A DNA stretch of 20,988 bases from a virus: positions 1 to 20,988 of IMG/VR virus record IMGVR_UViG_3300042471_000832; one strand, written 5' to 3'. Positions 5,350 to 19,709 of this stretch are shown here, piece after piece. Under the pieces are notes generated by a model. The model saw nothing but the letters and a program-made list of their open reading frames with translations. It did not search any database and was not told the DNA's origin. The translations under genes and the position numbers were made by a program. The stretch's first letter is position 1. Every line of letters begins with the position of its first letter.

Positions 5350-6781
5350 AGCTATCGCAGCCTACCGCCTACATATTGCCAAGGGCATCGAGGAGCTCCA
5401 CAGTCGGTGGCATCCTCACCCTGCGCAGGTAGAGATAGGCCGCGCCCTGTTGTCTGGCGGCTTCCTCGACGTGTTCGCCCAGTGTGGGCGCAACTTCGGC
5501 AAGACTGAGCTGGTGGGCTACCTGACGTGGCGCTACGCCTTTACCTTTCCGAAGAGCGAGAACTACTATTTCGCCCCGTATATGAAACAGGCCCGAGAGA
5601 TCATGTGGGCTAGCCGGCGCATCCAAGACTTCGGTCCCAAGTCATGGATCGAGAGTGTCAACAATACCGAGATGCGGATCACGTTCAAGAATGGATCGTT
5701 CATTAAGCTGGACGGTAGCGACAATGTGGACGCCTACCGCGGCGTCAAGCCCAAGGGACTGTCCATCTACGACGAGTTCAAGGACTTTCGCCCCGAGTTC
5801 CACGAAGCCTACGACCCGAACCGCGCAGCCTTTAACTCGCCGTTGCTTATCATCGGGACCCCTCCCGAGTTTGAAGGTCAGTTCACCAAGATCGCCGAGG
5901 AGTGGTCGTCGAACAAACGGAAGTCATACTTCACCTTCCCGACCAGCTCGAACCCTCATATCTCCCGCAAGTGGCTGGAGGAGAAGAAGGCTGAGCTGAT
6001 CGCCTTGGGTGAAGAGGATAAGTGGTTTCGCGAGTACGAAGCTAGGTTTGTCCGTGGTGGGGCTAAACGAGTGTTCCCCATGCTCAACCCTGACAAGATC
6101 GTCAGGCCTCATTCTCAGGTCACTCAGGAGATTTACCGCGACCGTAAGAAGCTGGAATGGTTCTCATGGGCTGACCCTGCAGGGGCGTCGTGTTTCGCTG
6201 TTCTGTACGGTGCAATCAATCCCTACACCCGAAAGGTGTACTTGCTAGACGAGATCTACGAGACCAATCAAGGCGAGATGACGGTCACCAAGATAGGCCA
6301 TAGGATCCTGAAGACAACTCAGGAGCTCTGGGAGCCTAGCACAACAGGCAACGAGTGGCGGCTAGGCTACGATGAGGCCGAGGCTTGGTTTGCTAACGAG
6401 ATGCTGGACCAGTTCGGCCTACACTTCGAGCCCACTCAGAAGGCCAAGAATGAGAAGGACAAGGGCATCACGCTGATCAAGGACATCCTGCTGGCTGATA
6501 AGCTCGTGGTTTCTGACCGCTGCAAGAAGCTGATCTGGGAGATGGATAACTATCAGAAGGACGACCACGGCAAGTTCGTCAAAAAGAACGACCACTTGAT
6601 TGATTGTCTCAGGTATATTCTGGGAGCGTCTTACTATACGATGAATGAAAGCGTCGAAGTTCAACCCGAGAAGGATGAGATGTGGCGCGGTGCTAGGATC
6701 TCAGATGACTTTCCGGGGTTTAACGAAACTGGAGAAAGGGTAGATGAATGGAATTTGGACACGGACTTAGCCTCTTGGTGA
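5333..6781 (+). CDS. terL: terminase large subunit (packaging ATPase and nuclease)
   Basis: 482 residues from ATG 5333, which has GAGG seven bases upstream. ATPase domain: Walker A-like CGRNFGKT at 51-58, Walker B LSIYDE at 143-148 with the catalytic Glu, and coupling motif IIGTPP at 173-178. RNase H-like nuclease domain: WADPAG with Asp281, YDEAEAWF with Asp347, and NDHLIDCLRY with Asp424, the usual acidic metal ligands. The length is close to that of P22 gp2. TerL cuts concatemeric DNA and pumps it into the prohead through the portal. The gene overlaps the upstream small subunit and the downstream membrane-protein gene. Confidence 0.95.
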   Translation: MSLNPEAIAAYRLHIAKGIEELHSRWHPHPAQVEIGRALLSGGFLDVFAQCGRNFGKTELVGYLTWRYAFTFPKSENYYFAPYMKQAREIMWASRRIQDFGPKSWIESVNNTEMRITFKNGSFIKLDGSDNVDAYRGVKPKGLSIYDEFKDFRPEFHEAYDPNRAAFNSPLLIIGTPPEFEGQFTKIAEEWSSNKRKSYFTFPTSSNPHISRKWLEEKKAELIALGEEDKWFREYEARFVRGGAKRVFPMLNPDKIVRPHSQVTQEIYRDRKKLEWFSWADPAGASCFAVLYGAINPYTRKVYLLDEIYETNQGEMTVTKIGHRILKTTQELWEPSTTGNEWRLGYDEAEAWFANEMLDQFGLHFEPTQKAKNEKDKGITLIKDILLADKLVVSDRCKKLIWEMDNYQKDDHGKFVKKNDHLIDCLRYILGASYYTMNESVEVQPEKDEMWRGARISDDFPGFNETGERVDEWNLDTDLASW

Positions 6782-10509: not shown

Positions 10510-11694
10510 ATGGCTAATTTTAACCTTCAGGATGCAAGTAATCTCTTTAAAATCAAGTATGGCAAGCTCTCTGAGAATACCTACAACTCTGCCAACGTGC
10601 TGTTGGCTCGGGTGAAGAAGAGCTACGACTTCGTAGGTAAGCAGCACTCCCGCGCTGTGCCGATCTCCATGTCTGGCGGCGTCGGATCGGGCTCTCTGCC
10701 TACCGCTAACTTCTCGGAAATCGGCGACGCACAGCTGATTGCCAAGAAGATGTACGCTGTCACCCAGATCGACCGTGAGGCCGTCAAAGCTGCTTCGAGC
10801 AGCGAAGGCGCCTTCGTTGAAATGACCAAGTTCGCTGTGCAAAAGGGCGTTGAGTCCTGGATGCGCAACATGAGCCGGGCCCTCTTCAACGATGGAACCG
10901 GAGCTCTTGGAACCATTCAGGCCGGCGGCGTGTTAGGTGCAGGCCCATGGGATTGCATTATCTCGACTGCTACCTGGAAGGAAGCTAACTTTGAAGAAAA
11001 GGACTATGTCAACCTGACCGGTGCATTGACGGCTGTTTTTGAAGTTACGGCTGTCGATCCTGCAACCCGCACCGTCACCCTGACGGCTGTTTCTGGATCG
11101 TACACCCCGGTTGCTGGCGATGTGATCTACATGCAAAACTCGAAGGATAAGGATCCTTCTGGTTTGAAGGGCGTGCTAGGAGCTACCTCCGGATCGCAGT
11201 ACAATATCTCGGTCGGCCGTCGCTGGCAGGCAAGTCAGCTGGCTGCCGGTGGAGCCGGTCTCACCACCGACCTGATGAACCAGCAGATGCTGGAGATTCA
11301 GCGTAAGTCCGGCAAGGTGCCTAACCTGATCATCACCTCGTTCACTCAGTTTCGCAAACTGTTGAATGTCCTTGAAGATCAGAAGCAATACATTGTTGAG
11401 CCCCGGTCTCCTGAGCTCGTCGGAAAGGTCTCTTTCCGCGGCGTGGAGTTCATGAGCTCGGCAGGCCCTGTCGGCGTCTTCCCAGAGCGTTTCTGTGAAG
11501 ATGACCGTATGTACATGCTCAATGACAACTTCATTGAGATCGCGCACCGCCCAGACTTCGGATGGTTCGATGATGATGGCTCCGTGTTCCTCCGTGACGC
11601 TGCAAGCGATTCCTACAGCGCACGCTTCGGCGGCTACCTCGAAGCCTACATCGCACCTCCGTTCCACGGTGTGATCACCGGCTTGGCTACCTAA
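10510..11694 (+). CDS. major capsid protein, HK97-fold (394 aa)
   Basis: ATG 10510 has GAGGA seven bases upstream. The N-arm (FNLQDASNLFKIKYGKLSEN) is followed by the region expected for the E-loop and spine helix (GGVGSGSLPTANFSEIGDAQ, then FVEMTKFAVQKGVESWMRNM). A strand-rich insertion occurs at about 175-215 (TAVFEVTAVDPATRTVTLTA), then an A-domain with LIITSFTQFRKLLNVLEDQK, RGVEFMSSAGPVGVFPE, and the C-terminal ARFGGYLEAYIAPPFHGVITG. The position after a scaffold and before a strong terminator fits the most heavily expressed virion gene. The strand-rich insertion may act like the I-domain of P22-type coats; that is inference. Confidence 0.9.
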   Translation: MANFNLQDASNLFKIKYGKLSENTYNSANVLLARVKKSYDFVGKQHSRAVPISMSGGVGSGSLPTANFSEIGDAQLIAKKMYAVTQIDREAVKAASSSEGAFVEMTKFAVQKGVESWMRNMSRALFNDGTGALGTIQAGGVLGAGPWDCIISTATWKEANFEEKDYVNLTGALTAVFEVTAVDPATRTVTLTAVSGSYTPVAGDVIYMQNSKDKDPSGLKGVLGATSGSQYNISVGRRWQASQLAAGGAGLTTDLMNQQMLEIQRKSGKVPNLIITSFTQFRKLLNVLEDQKQYIVEPRSPELVGKVSFRGVEFMSSAGPVGVFPERFCEDDRMYMLNDNFIEIAHRPDFGWFDDDGSVFLRDAASDSYSARFGGYLEAYIAPPFHGVITGLAT

Positions 11695-11715
11695 GGATCG
11701 GGTAGCGACAGGGGG

Positions 11716-11750
11716 GCGGGGACACTGCGGGTCCTGGCCCCCCGCTTTTT
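11716..11750 (+). terminator. intrinsic terminator after the major capsid gene
   Basis: GCGGGG (11716-11721) pairs with CCCCGC (11740-11745) and is followed by TTTTT (11746-11750). An inner GGAC/GTCC stem and a competing GGGGGG/CCCCCC pairing add stability. It lies 20 bases after the capsid stop and would lower expression of downstream virion genes relative to coat. Confidence 0.8.
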
Positions 11751-11779: not shown

Positions 11780-12106
11780 ATGCTTCGTTCAATTAAGTCC
11801 CCTCAACGCGCCCCTCGCCAACTTCATTTCAAAGTAGATGGAACCGGTGCTGCTTCCATCCTGATCGGATCGAAAGATGCAACCCTGACCGATAACGGAA
11901 CCGGGGATTATACCCTGACGTTCGAGCAAGCTTTTGCTCGTCTTCCTGTTGTCGTCGCATCTAGCCTTACCGCTGGAGCAGTCATCCAGATTGCATCGGC
12001 TACCGCGTCGGCTTGTCAGATCGTTGTGAAAGATACAGCTGGATCTGCACTCGATGCTGACCTGATGGTGATCGTTCAAGGTTTCGACGCAGCGGACGAG
12101 TACTAA
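11780..12106 (+). CDS. small beta-rich virion protein (108 aa), possible decoration protein
   Basis: AAGGAG six bases before ATG 11780 is the strongest kind of SD. After a basic N-terminus (LRSIKSPQRAPRQLHFKVDG) the sequence alternates short strands: ASILIGSKDATLTDNGTGDY, TLTFEQAFARLPVVVASSLT, then CQIVVKDTAGSALDADLMVI. The DNGTGDYTLTF pattern occurs in small structural proteins of other phages, by recall. The position right after the capsid gene suggests a head decoration or head-completion protein. Nothing in the sequence decides between these. Confidence 0.75.
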   Translation: MLRSIKSPQRAPRQLHFKVDGTGAASILIGSKDATLTDNGTGDYTLTFEQAFARLPVVVASSLTAGAVIQIASATASACQIVVKDTAGSALDADLMVIVQGFDAADEY

Positions 12107-12116
12107 ACGCTAGTCA

Positions 12117-12194
12117 GGCCCGGTAGCTCAGGGGTAGAGTAGCTTTAAGCGCGGCACTTAAAGCGGGTCAGAGGTTCGAATCCTCTCCGGGCCG
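12117..12194 (+). tRNA. tRNA gene with enlarged (8-bp) anticodon stem; identity uncertain
   Basis: Acceptor stem 12117-12123 with 12187-12193 (7 perfect pairs), D-arm GCTC/GAGT (12126-12129, 12137-12140, one G-U) with a GG- and TA-containing loop, a 5-base variable loop, and a perfect T-arm AGAGG/CCTCT with loop TTCGAAT. The anticodon arm is odd: 12142-12149 pairs with 12157-12164 as eight consecutive pairs around a 7-base loop CGCGGCA (12150-12156), so the arm is six bases longer than the standard 17. The central triplet would be CGG (reads CCG, Pro), but position 33 is G where T is expected. CCA is not encoded (CCT follows the discriminator G). It lies between two virion genes. Confidence 0.75.
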
Positions 12195-12211
12195 CCTAAC
12201 GGGGGTTTAAA

Positions 12212-12565
12212 ATGGCTAGTGTTCAACGCCTTGTTCTTCAATCCGGCGCAATTTCTGGAGCTTCTGGATCAACAGACGCCATGAGCCTTGAGGCTTATGT
12301 GACGGATGTTATCGGATCGGTAGTTTGCTCCGCTGCTGGGTTTACTACTTTTGATGCTTATCTTCAGCACTCGCCAGACGGTACGACCTGGTTCGATGTC
12401 GTGCAGCTTGCAAAGCCAGGTGGCGGGTCGCTGGCTGCTACCGGAGCTATGATCGCATCGACGACTAGTCCTATCTTGGGCAAGGTTCGGATGCGGTGGG
12501 CACTTACGGGTGGTGCTCAAACTGCTACTGCCGACTTTGTGGTCTATTACGATAAGAGGAAGTAA
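12212..12565 (+). CDS. beta-rich virion protein (117 aa)
   Basis: Starts 18 bases after the tRNA; only a GGGGG tract seven bases upstream serves as SD. The sequence alternates small residues and strands and contains FDAYLQHSPDGTTWFDVVQL and GKVRMRWALTGGAQTATADF. The HSPDGTTWFDV motif followed by a WALTGG strand is familiar from small phage structural proteins of unknown role. The stop overlaps the next start as TAATG. Probably a head, neck or tail-accessory component. Confidence 0.75.
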   Translation: MASVQRLVLQSGAISGASGSTDAMSLEAYVTDVIGSVVCSAAGFTTFDAYLQHSPDGTTWFDVVQLAKPGGGSLAATGAMIASTTSPILGKVRMRWALTGGAQTATADFVVYYDKRK

Positions 12566-17276: not shown

Positions 17277-19709
17277 ATGAGTTCACAAAAAGGTTACAGC
17301 ACGCAGGAAAAAGACGACCGGTTATCTGCTCAGTTTCAGACTATTGAACCTGTCAGAGAGCTTCAGTACGGCTCCACGGTTGTAGCCCATCAATTTGTTT
17401 ACGAAGTAGGCACTGACGCCGCTGAAGCTGGCTCTACAGCTTACTCAATCGTAGCTTCTGCCCACGCAGCTCTCAAGGGTGACGTCATCCTTTTGACGAG
17501 CGGTGCCCTTTCAGGCCGTGAAGTAAAGGTCTGGGAAGTATCGGCTAACCTCATTACCCTTGCTGAGACTCTTCCTTCAGCGATTGCTGCAGCTGTCACT
17601 TTTAAAATTCTTCGGCACAAATATCCATCGGTTGACTCGACCGGGGCTGTGAATATCACTGGATCGATTTCATTCTCTGAAGAAGCTACGGCTGCTGACG
17701 GTGGTGCTCTTCCTGCTGTAGTAAAGGTAGTCGGCGGGTATGATGGATCGGCTGTTCAGGTCATTAAAACTAATGCCGCTGGTGAGCTTGAGGTTGATGT
17801 GCTTTCAAGCGCGCTTCCGACTGGAGCGGCTACTGAAGCTACATTATTGGGTGTTGCTACTGAGGCAACAGTAAGCACGCTGGCAAGTGAGGCTACTCTA
17901 GCGACTTTGGCGACCGAAACCACTGTAGCCACCCTTGCCACCGAAGCTACTGTAGCAACGCTCGCCACGGAGGCTACTGTCGCTACACTTGCGACTGCTG
18001 CTGCTCAAGCTGACGGCACTCAAAAGAGTCAGATTGTTGACGGCGCTGGCAACGTCATTAGCTCAACTTCTAATGCTCTCGACGTAAATTTAAAGAGTCC
18101 TGTCATCGTCGATGTTAACCTCGATGAAGCAGATGATTCGGTGGCAGTGTTTGGGTATGATGGCACTGTTAACAGAGCGATCAAGACCGATGCTTCAGGG
18201 GAACTCCAGGTAGATATTCTAAGCTCGGCATTGCCTACTGGAGCTGCTACCGAGACGACTCTTAATGCAATTAAGACTGCAGTAGAGCTGATTGATAACA
18301 CGGTTAGCGGAAACGAATTACAGGTAGACATTGTATCTTCGGCACTTCCATCAGGAGCAGCAACAGAGACAACGCTTCTAGCTATTGAAGCTGATACAAC
18401 TTCACTAGCTGGATGTGTATCTGGTTCGGAAGTTCAAGTAGATGTAGTATCTAGCGCACTCCCTATAGGCGCAGCTACTGAAACTACTCTTGCAGATATC
18501 AAAACCGCTGTTCAGCTCATTGATAACGCGATCTCCGGTAACGAGATGCAGGTTGATGTTGTTAGTTCTGCTCTCCCTACAGGAGCTGCAACGGAAGCGA
18601 CTCTTGCAACACTAGCGACAGAAGCGACTGTAAGCACGCTCGCTACTGAAACTACGGTTTTGACTTTAGGGACAGAGACTACACTTCTAGCAGTTAAAAC
18701 CGCTGTCGAAGCGATTGAAAACACGGTTAGCGGCAGTGAACTTCAAGTCGATGTTGTTACTTCAGCCCTTCCGACCGGAGCCGCAACGAGCGCGGCGCAG
18801 ACTGACGGCTCCCAAAAGACTCAAATTGTAGATGGGTCTGGGAACGTCATCGGATCGACCGGGAACGCATTAGATGTTAATGTAAAAACACCGATTACGG
18901 TCGACGTTAGCTTATCTGAGGCAAATGACTCGGTTGCTGTCTTCGGGAGCGACGGAACTACTAACCGAGCGCTTAAGACTGACGCAAACGGTGAGCTTCA
19001 AATCGACGTTCTTTCGAGCGCATTACCTACCGGAGCTGCAACGGAGACTACTCTTGGAGCGGTTAAAACATCAGTAGAGCTTATTGATGACGCTGTTGTA
19101 GTGGATGGCGCTGCTTTTGCGGGTAAGGGTCTTGTTATTGCTGGTATTACCCCTGGTGGGGTTGCTCAGATTATTGAGACCAATGCCAGCGGACACGTTC
19201 ACGTAGCAGATGGCGGCGGTTCTTTGACGGTTGATGCTACCTCTTGGCCATTGCCGACCGGGGCTGCTACCGAAACCACGCTTTCCACGCTGAATGGGAA
19301 GGTCACTGACTGTAACACTGGTGCGGTGACGATCTCGACGGCTCTTCCAAGTGGAACCAATACGATCGGTAAGATTGACGTTAATACCTTGTCGGTTATC
19401 GACCTTCTTGATGCCGGTATCTTGGATACTTCTAGCACCAACATTAACGGTAGCGCATCGGCTCCTACTCAGGTTGTAGCCTCTACTGCAGCTGCTACAA
19501 AAAAGTTACAGCTCCTCGACACGACTGGAGCTTTCATCGGAGTTTACACTGGTGCGGCTCTCTCTGAGGTGCTTCAGTTTGTAATGGGTCCGGGTTCTGA
19601 CCAGACGATTGAGCATTCAATCCCTGCCGGCACTCGGATTAGCCTGAAACGTCTTGATTCGACTACAGCGGTATCTAGTGGAATTGTGGCAATTAACTTC
19701 ATCGGATGA
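17277..19709 (+). CDS. repeat-built fibre or appendage protein (810 aa)
   Basis: GGGAGG lies before ATG 17277. The first ~130 residues form a non-repetitive N-terminal domain. From about residue 170 to 680 the protein is built of repeats: eight versions of a core ending in ALPTGAAT(E/S), five tandem 9-residue units of the type LATEATVAT at about 193-243, and a ~100-residue block present twice at about 244-345 and 508-605, opening Q(K/T)... IVDG.GNVI.ST.NALDVN. The last ~110 residues are non-repetitive and strand-rich. Repeats of this type are widespread in phage tail-fibre-like proteins, where they form extended trimeric shafts. No enzymatic motif seen. The synonymous variation between repeat copies is high. 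Confidence 0.8.
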   Translation: MSSQKGYSTQEKDDRLSAQFQTIEPVRELQYGSTVVAHQFVYEVGTDAAEAGSTAYSIVASAHAALKGDVILLTSGALSGREVKVWEVSANLITLAETLPSAIAAAVTFKILRHKYPSVDSTGAVNITGSISFSEEATAADGGALPAVVKVVGGYDGSAVQVIKTNAAGELEVDVLSSALPTGAATEATLLGVATEATVSTLASEATLATLATETTVATLATEATVATLATEATVATLATAAAQADGTQKSQIVDGAGNVISSTSNALDVNLKSPVIVDVNLDEADDSVAVFGYDGTVNRAIKTDASGELQVDILSSALPTGAATETTLNAIKTAVELIDNTVSGNELQVDIVSSALPSGAATETTLLAIEADTTSLAGCVSGSEVQVDVVSSALPIGAATETTLADIKTAVQLIDNAISGNEMQVDVVSSALPTGAATEATLATLATEATVSTLATETTVLTLGTETTLLAVKTAVEAIENTVSGSELQVDVVTSALPTGAATSAAQTDGSQKTQIVDGSGNVIGSTGNALDVNVKTPITVDVSLSEANDSVAVFGSDGTTNRALKTDANGELQIDVLSSALPTGAATETTLGAVKTSVELIDDAVVVDGAAFAGKGLVIAGITPGGVAQIIETNASGHVHVADGGGSLTVDATSWPLPTGAATETTLSTLNGKVTDCNTGAVTISTALPSGTNTIGKIDVNTLSVIDLLDAGILDTSSTNINGSASAPTQVVASTAAATKKLQLLDTTGAFIGVYTGAALSEVLQFVMGPGSDQTIEHSIPAGTRISLKRLDSTTAVSSGIVAINFIG
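17853..18005 (+). repeat. nonapeptide repeat tract
   Basis: Five tandem copies of a 9-residue unit of the form TLATEATVA fill this segment, with codons varied between copies. It suggests a regular rod-like shaft segment. Confidence 0.8.
18006..19090 (+). repeat. long internal duplication of ~100 residues, 264 residues apart
   Basis: The block starting at 18006 and the block starting at 18798 encode nearly parallel sequences. Both run from an IVDG.GNVI start through a NALDVN strand, then SVAVFG.DGT.NRA(I/L)KTD and an ALPTGAATETTL end. Between them lie four shorter ALPTGAAT units. The order suggests growth by duplication of a multi-unit segment. Confidence 0.75.

Follow-up and report, generated by a model that had tools for sequence, protein, structure and literature searches.

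A probable non-decoding tRNA-like domain with an extended anticodon-type arm between virion genes of a tailed-phage family

At a fixed border between their virion genes, a family of tailed phages carries an RNA domain with the fold of a tRNA that most likely does not decode, but marks a gene boundary as a cis-acting part of the late mRNA. We studied it in the IMG/VR virus record IMGVR_UViG_3300042471_000832, whose 20,988 nt, comprising late genes of a tailed phage, are referred to here in their entirety as the window. Three features point to a cis-acting boundary element in late mRNA: the constant place of the domain at a gene border, the hairpins that replace it in relatives and the pairing of its flanks.

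In the window the element occupies positions 12117-12196 of the plus strand, with a cloverleaf at 12117-12193, base 73 at G12194 and C74-C75 at 12195-12196. The 5' strand of the acceptor stem (12117-12123) forms 7 of 7 pairs with 12187-12193 and is followed by U8-A9 and the D arm (GCTC AGGGGTA GAGT, 12126-12140). Next come an extended anticodon-type arm (12142-12164), in which 12142-12149 and 12157-12164 form 8 of 8 base pairs around the loop CGCGGCA, a five-base variable loop, GGGTC (12165-12169), and the T arm with the loop TTCGAAT (12170-12186); the bases G-C-C stand after the acceptor stem. ARAGORN reports a tRNA-Pro(CGG), our own covariance model scores 82.3 bits, and the minimum-energy fold is exactly the cloverleaf, at -32.4 kcal/mol (z -2.1). 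A search with tRNA covariance models had been proposed by the first-pass annotation, and the Rfam tRNA model matches at 48.6 bits (E 8e-8), above its cut-off of 29. The tRNA-like fold, the coordinates and the pairings which that annotation had described are thus correct, as evidenced by sequence, ARAGORN, Rfam and the computed fold. It had also rightly noted an anticodon arm six bases longer than usual (23 bases versus 17 in a tRNA), the lack of U33, as the 7-base loop puts a G at position 33, and the location between virion genes; these are the decoration-type gene and the next one. The 'anticodon' assigned by ARAGORN is an artefact: for relatives the program names Arg, Ser, Leu, Ala, Val or Phe, or leaves the identity undetermined.

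The gene order in the window is terminase, P22-type portal, scaffold-like protein, major capsid protein, a 108-aa decoration-type protein and further virion-type genes, the labels 'scaffold-like' and 'decoration-type' being drawn from this order. The gene for the major capsid protein (10510-11694, plus strand; PHROG 14242 major head protein, E 9e-21) is followed by that for the decoration-type protein (11780-12106, plus strand), assigned from a weak PHROG lectin match and its context in relatives. The gap between the two holds a GC-rich hairpin with a TTTTT tail (11711-11750, plus strand), a companion boundary structure of the tRNA-like element, and every relative tested has a predicted structure in this gap (mean folding z -2.9, n=28 gaps). 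Directly downstream of the element lies the gene for a 117-aa MASV-type protein (12212-12565, plus strand), taken from the list of open reading frames and from relatives, and the sequence GGGGG at 12201-12205 of the same strand is, from its composition and from the spacing in relatives, its likely ribosome-binding sequence. Further along, positions 17277-19706 encode a protein of 810 aa that is rich in repeats of the TEATLATLATE and SALPTGAATETTL types and is probably a fibre protein of the virion. No cultured relative was found by DNA, and by protein the sole match was a capsid of 23% identity from Microbacterium phage Shocker, whose annotation shows no tRNA in the capsid region. No close relative of the capsid was found in bacterial genomes.

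A search with the window capsid protein yielded 80 viral loci, and the elements in these relatives were located by a covariance model built from ARAGORN matches. The tRNA-like element is present in 41 of the 80 capsid-encoding loci in addition to the window, with the same fold in very different sequence, and the decoration protein led to an additional contig with the element, L104. Its position is always directly after the decoration gene (whose product starts MLR[ES]IK..QR), some 10 nt past the stop codon, and the start codon that follows is 8-20 nt away; every whole record searched contains a single copy, apart from G014 with two at the matching ends of the contig. All elements fall into one clade of the capsid-protein tree with 99% support, made up of 35 rows with the element, 4 truncated contigs and 3 rows without it; note that this is a quick tree, and that the L078 row is partial, translated from a contig end with 7 stops removed. 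The capsid proteins of element carriers are only about 65-70% identical to that of the window. Pattern scans of 2.9 million viral contigs for the arm tips GCGGC and GCAAGGACGCTT gave matches confined to this element family, and looser scans for GACG matched five other contigs besides. Four loci keep the element but have an unrelated gene (start MTIQQ..) in the downstream position (L003, 5691; L016, 3712; L026, 5743; L039, 5802). Over-long anticodon arms also occur in tRNA-like genes of unrelated phages (L178, 5254-5334, minus strand; L169, 9175-9255; L180, 2526-2606; L195, 1490-1570); they came from a pattern in which the GACG motif was obligatory, and may represent independent instances of such an element. 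Three genomes of the element family encode an ordinary tRNA-Asn(GTT) with a 5-bp stem, U33 and encoded GCCA (L192, 584-658; L193, 534-608; L194, 640-714), so that these phages carry normal tRNAs too, and this gene constitutes a built-in control.

Judged from covariation, counted over 34 distinct element sequences, the tRNA body is under selection. In the acceptor stem 99.6% of cells are paired and 7 of 7 pairs show changes on both sides; in the T stem the figures are 98.8% and 4 of 5, giving compensatory changes at 11 of the 12 acceptor and T pairs. Double-change cells number 197, compared with 64 in shuffles, and 0 of 500 shuffles reach the observed value. As the first covariance model misaligns the arms of some types (helix 3 at 76%), arms were counted per type. 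Compensatory changes in relatives, for which the first-pass annotation had suggested looking in the 8-bp stem, were found in acceptor, T and arm stems alike, and its argument against simple decay is borne out by this family-wide covariation. Across the 34 elements U8, A9, A21 and C56 never change, and A14 and G18G19 hardly ever do, with G19 invariant or nearly so in the relatives. The tertiary 15:48 (Levitt) pair is G-C in 25 cases, A-T in 7 and broken in 2, a covariation that is evidence for the L-shaped fold itself. The family thus combines a cloverleaf with the tertiary core of an elongator tRNA (U8, A14, G18G19, R15:Y48 and the T-loop), and elbow and acceptor/T stack are present as in RNase P-processed elements of the mascRNA type. 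Base 73 is T in 19, G in 7, C in 6 and A in 2 of the 34 sequences; C74 is kept in 32 of 34 and C75 in 27 of 34, and only 7 of 35 elements encode A76.

The 5-bp anticodon stem, 7-nt loop, U33 and constant anticodon of an elongator tRNA were not found in combination. According to the first-pass annotation, relatives with a normal arm at the same locus would have pointed to a single degenerate copy here; we looked for a 17-base anticodon arm with U33 and saw it in no relative, every arm being extended. The arms are hairpins, mostly with 8-9 predicted pairs (mean z -2.3), whose tip contains GACG in 24 of 34 elements and GCGGC in 8 of 34. Tips are constant within a type, CGACGG in one, GCAAGGACGCTT in another and GCGGC in that of the window, and the stems below them compensate. 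An identical arm is found on unrelated acceptor stems in L001 (3541-3569) and L026 (element at 5648-5727), and this sequence identity suggests that arm modules are exchanged between phages.

Outside the cloverleaf, the leader between stop codon and element (12107-12116 in the window, plus strand) is predicted to pair with the 3' tail in many relatives. With ten bases taken from each side, the total contiguous run is 60 versus 34 (0 of 10000 shuffles), the energy of the resulting acceptor extension is -5.5 versus -3.7 kcal/mol in shuffled flanks (0 of 5000), and pairing stays above chance with the 22 less similar representatives (0 of 10000), although such shuffle counts overstate significance, as the sequences are related and not independent. 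The pairing is weak in the window and its own subgroup, and the solutions differ from phage to phage, with 8 pairs in L030, 6 pairs in L020 and GTGAGG opposite CCTCAT in L024. In four relatives, L028, L034, L038 and L054, the 8-9 bases that separate the element from the start codon lack a Shine-Dalgarno sequence, which is instead found upstream, in perfect form (AAGGAG, AAGGAGG or GGAGG) and immediately next to the element. If the element is closed, Shine-Dalgarno and AUG are by our own count some 10-12 unpaired bases apart. As the four are close kin, this split site may be a single event, and in the window the ribosome-binding site is not split, as GGGGG follows the element. Sequestering of a Shine-Dalgarno sequence by the 3' NCC was rejected as the general reason for the kept NCC, since the same four relatives keep TCC with no downstream Shine-Dalgarno.

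Where the element is missing, other structures take its place. In the three clade members that lack it, a strong hairpin fills the gap, of 14 bp with T8 in L027 and L051 and of 15 bp in L049. Most outgroups with gaps of about 35-85 nt likewise have a hairpin at this place, whereas outgroups with almost no gap have none. Over the element-less gaps of these three members and the outgroups the mean z is -3.0 (n=14 gaps). The locus is thus occupied by a stable structure between operon genes, with different structures at the same place in relatives. An intrinsic terminator was considered and rejected, as no T run follows the stem in the window and most relatives; T8 is found in L043/L077.

Of the three options that the first-pass annotation had offered, a tRNA-like RNA structure serving as mRNA punctuation fits best with the fixed gap and the flank pairing. 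We propose that a tRNA gene was converted into a non-decoding, tRNA-shaped domain of the late mRNA. Provided that transcription runs through, the domain would fold in cis, with the stop codon of the capsid/decoration genes on one side and the next start codon on the other, its closing acceptor stem often lengthened by the predicted leader-tail pairing. The compact L-shaped fold would then form a boundary that shields the capsid-side message from 3'-to-5' decay, limits passage downstream, or both, and the phage would thereby make more of its capsid and decoration proteins than of the proteins that follow. Ribosomes would still start just past the element, which in one subgroup would lie inside a split ribosome-binding site, and the tip of the former anticodon arm would be a conserved recognition module bound by a partner. 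That the mechanism is indeed one of a decay barrier or an expression-setting element we consider an even call from the sequence comparisons. A plain hairpin would do as a barrier, yet the elbow (U8, A14, GG, TTCRA, 15:48) is kept, which suggests that a tRNA-binding factor matters; the kept elbow may point to such a factor, RNase P being the first candidate, or to the stability of the fold itself, and the kept arm tip to a partner. Running counter to the boundary model, most members keep NCC, as RNase P would like.

This last point leads to a reading in which host RNase P, perhaps with RNase Z, cuts the late mRNA at the element and parts the capsid/decoration message from the downstream one, like mascRNA in MALAT1. 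The intact elbow and the 12-bp acceptor/T stack are the parts that RNase P measures (PMC4919913), the kept C74 and C75 match the RCC contact of RNase P RNA, the enzyme does cut some polycistronic mRNAs and phage RNAs (PMC11143913), and mascRNA and menRNA likewise have a longer anticodon-side stem (PMC11693755). In many members, however, the leader is predicted to pair with NCC, so that both contacts of RNase P ought to be covered, position -1 is A in 18 of 35 elements and U in only 4 of 35, and a cut at +1 would strip the next gene of its only clear Shine-Dalgarno sequence in four relatives. Punctuation in the form of an RNase P site, also raised by the first-pass annotation, is thus weakly supported, the ribosome-binding site in some members spanning an uncut element, and we hold it to be unlikely. 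Somewhat less likely still is a translational operator, in which a phage or host protein would bind the invariant arm tip and control initiation of the next gene, like the T4 gp43 operator hairpin or thrS with ThrRS. The constancy of the tips above compensating stems, the distance of 8-20 nt to the start codon, the position between Shine-Dalgarno and AUG in four relatives and the arm that L001 and L026 share despite different acceptor stems would all suit an operator, but the element is kept in the four loci where the downstream gene differs, and no candidate binding protein was identified.

Distinctly improbable is a trans-acting decoy, released from the transcript to titrate or inhibit a host enzyme that targets tRNAs, for instance an anticodon nuclease. 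Such a role would agree with a whole tRNA body kept with no decoding loop and with a fast-evolving stem, but a decoy could sit anywhere, while the position is fixed and hairpins stand in where the element is absent, and the flank pairing suggests a function within the mRNA. The unusual decoding or suppression envisaged in the first-pass annotation is not supported. A working tRNA with an unusual anticodon arm, acting in suppression or frameshifting, would explain why ARAGORN and Rfam call a tRNA, but there is no constant anticodon, U33 or constant discriminator, A76 is mostly not encoded, the arm is too long for normal decoding, and the tRNA-Asn of the same genomes has U33, the 5-bp stem and GCCA, so that we see hardly any chance for it. 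A functionless degenerate relic would account for an arm that departs from tRNA rules, but compensatory changes in every stem, equalled by none of the shuffles, and retention across capsids of only about 65-70% identity to that of the window leave it practically no room. The 6-8 extra bases are too few for the known types of tRNA intron in the anticodon loop. With respect to an integration site (attP at a tRNA), no integrase was found among 20 large ORFs of two records, and the element sits among virion genes. Judged from its flanks, the boundary element seems to be built to stay in the mRNA.

It is possible, if a little short of an even chance, that the family represents a new class, in which a complete tRNA fold was captured into a late operon and its anticodon arm rebuilt as an exchangeable recognition hairpin that in some members bridges Shine-Dalgarno sequence and start codon, which would link a tRNA-shaped domain directly to virion-gene initiation or mRNA stability. 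The searchable open-access literature yielded no description of an element of this kind in phages. Annotation pipelines will list these elements among the phage tRNAs, as normal or aberrant ones whose anticodons are random, and if the proposal is true, part of the phage tRNAs counted to date are cis-acting, tRNA-shaped RNA in virion operons. Together with the hairpins of sister phages, the covarying elements form a natural series for asking how a tRNA fold sets stoichiometry, resists RNases or gives a ribosome-binding site its shape, and if it is read by RNase P or by some other factor that binds tRNA.

Several known systems invite comparison. The operator of E. coli thrS is a tRNA-like mRNA domain just upstream of the ribosome-binding site that binds ThrRS through a mimic of the tRNA-Thr anticodon, whereas the phage element has no constant anticodon. 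Plant virus tRNA-like structures form the 3' ends of RNA genomes, and several of them are chargeable, while the phage element is internal, between tailed-phage genes. The plant structures have been described as viral tRNA mimicry (PMC5723415). Non-tRNA substrates of RNase P, among them C4 antisense RNA, M3 RNA, polycistronic mRNAs and the plant virus TLS (PMC11143913), are likewise tRNA-like folds in viral or operon RNA recognised there by host tRNA enzymes, but the predicted leader-tail pairing of the phage element argues against easy cleavage, and as its free NCC end looks masked in many members we do not file it as an RNase P substrate. The mascRNA and menRNA, tRNA-like 3' elements of MALAT1 and MEN-beta that are not aminoacylated (PMC11693755), resemble it as tRNA-like elements of a longer transcript with the elbow kept and a longer anticodon-side stem carrying a compact loop, but they belong to human nuclear lncRNAs and have a reduced D arm, whereas the phage element is part of a putative mRNA, between two genes, and has a full D arm and variable loop. 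Between malE and malF an intercistronic RNA structure shields the abundant upstream message (PMC5927463); it is a plain structure, in contrast to a tRNA fold with conserved elbow and arm tip, but it shares the place between an abundant upstream product and the next gene, and from this likeness we infer that the phage element may protect the capsid-side message and set stoichiometry. In T4 genes 25 and 38 a structure lies between Shine-Dalgarno sequence and AUG and shortens the distance for gene 25 from 27 to 11 nt (PMC3014915), similar to the effective spacing of about 10-12 nt in L028, L034, L038 and L054, although T4 uses small hairpins and the phages an 80-base tRNA-like domain, and these in one subgroup only. 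We place the element with none of mascRNA/menRNA, the intercistronic protective structures or the split T4 sites, but it resembles each of them in how it may work.
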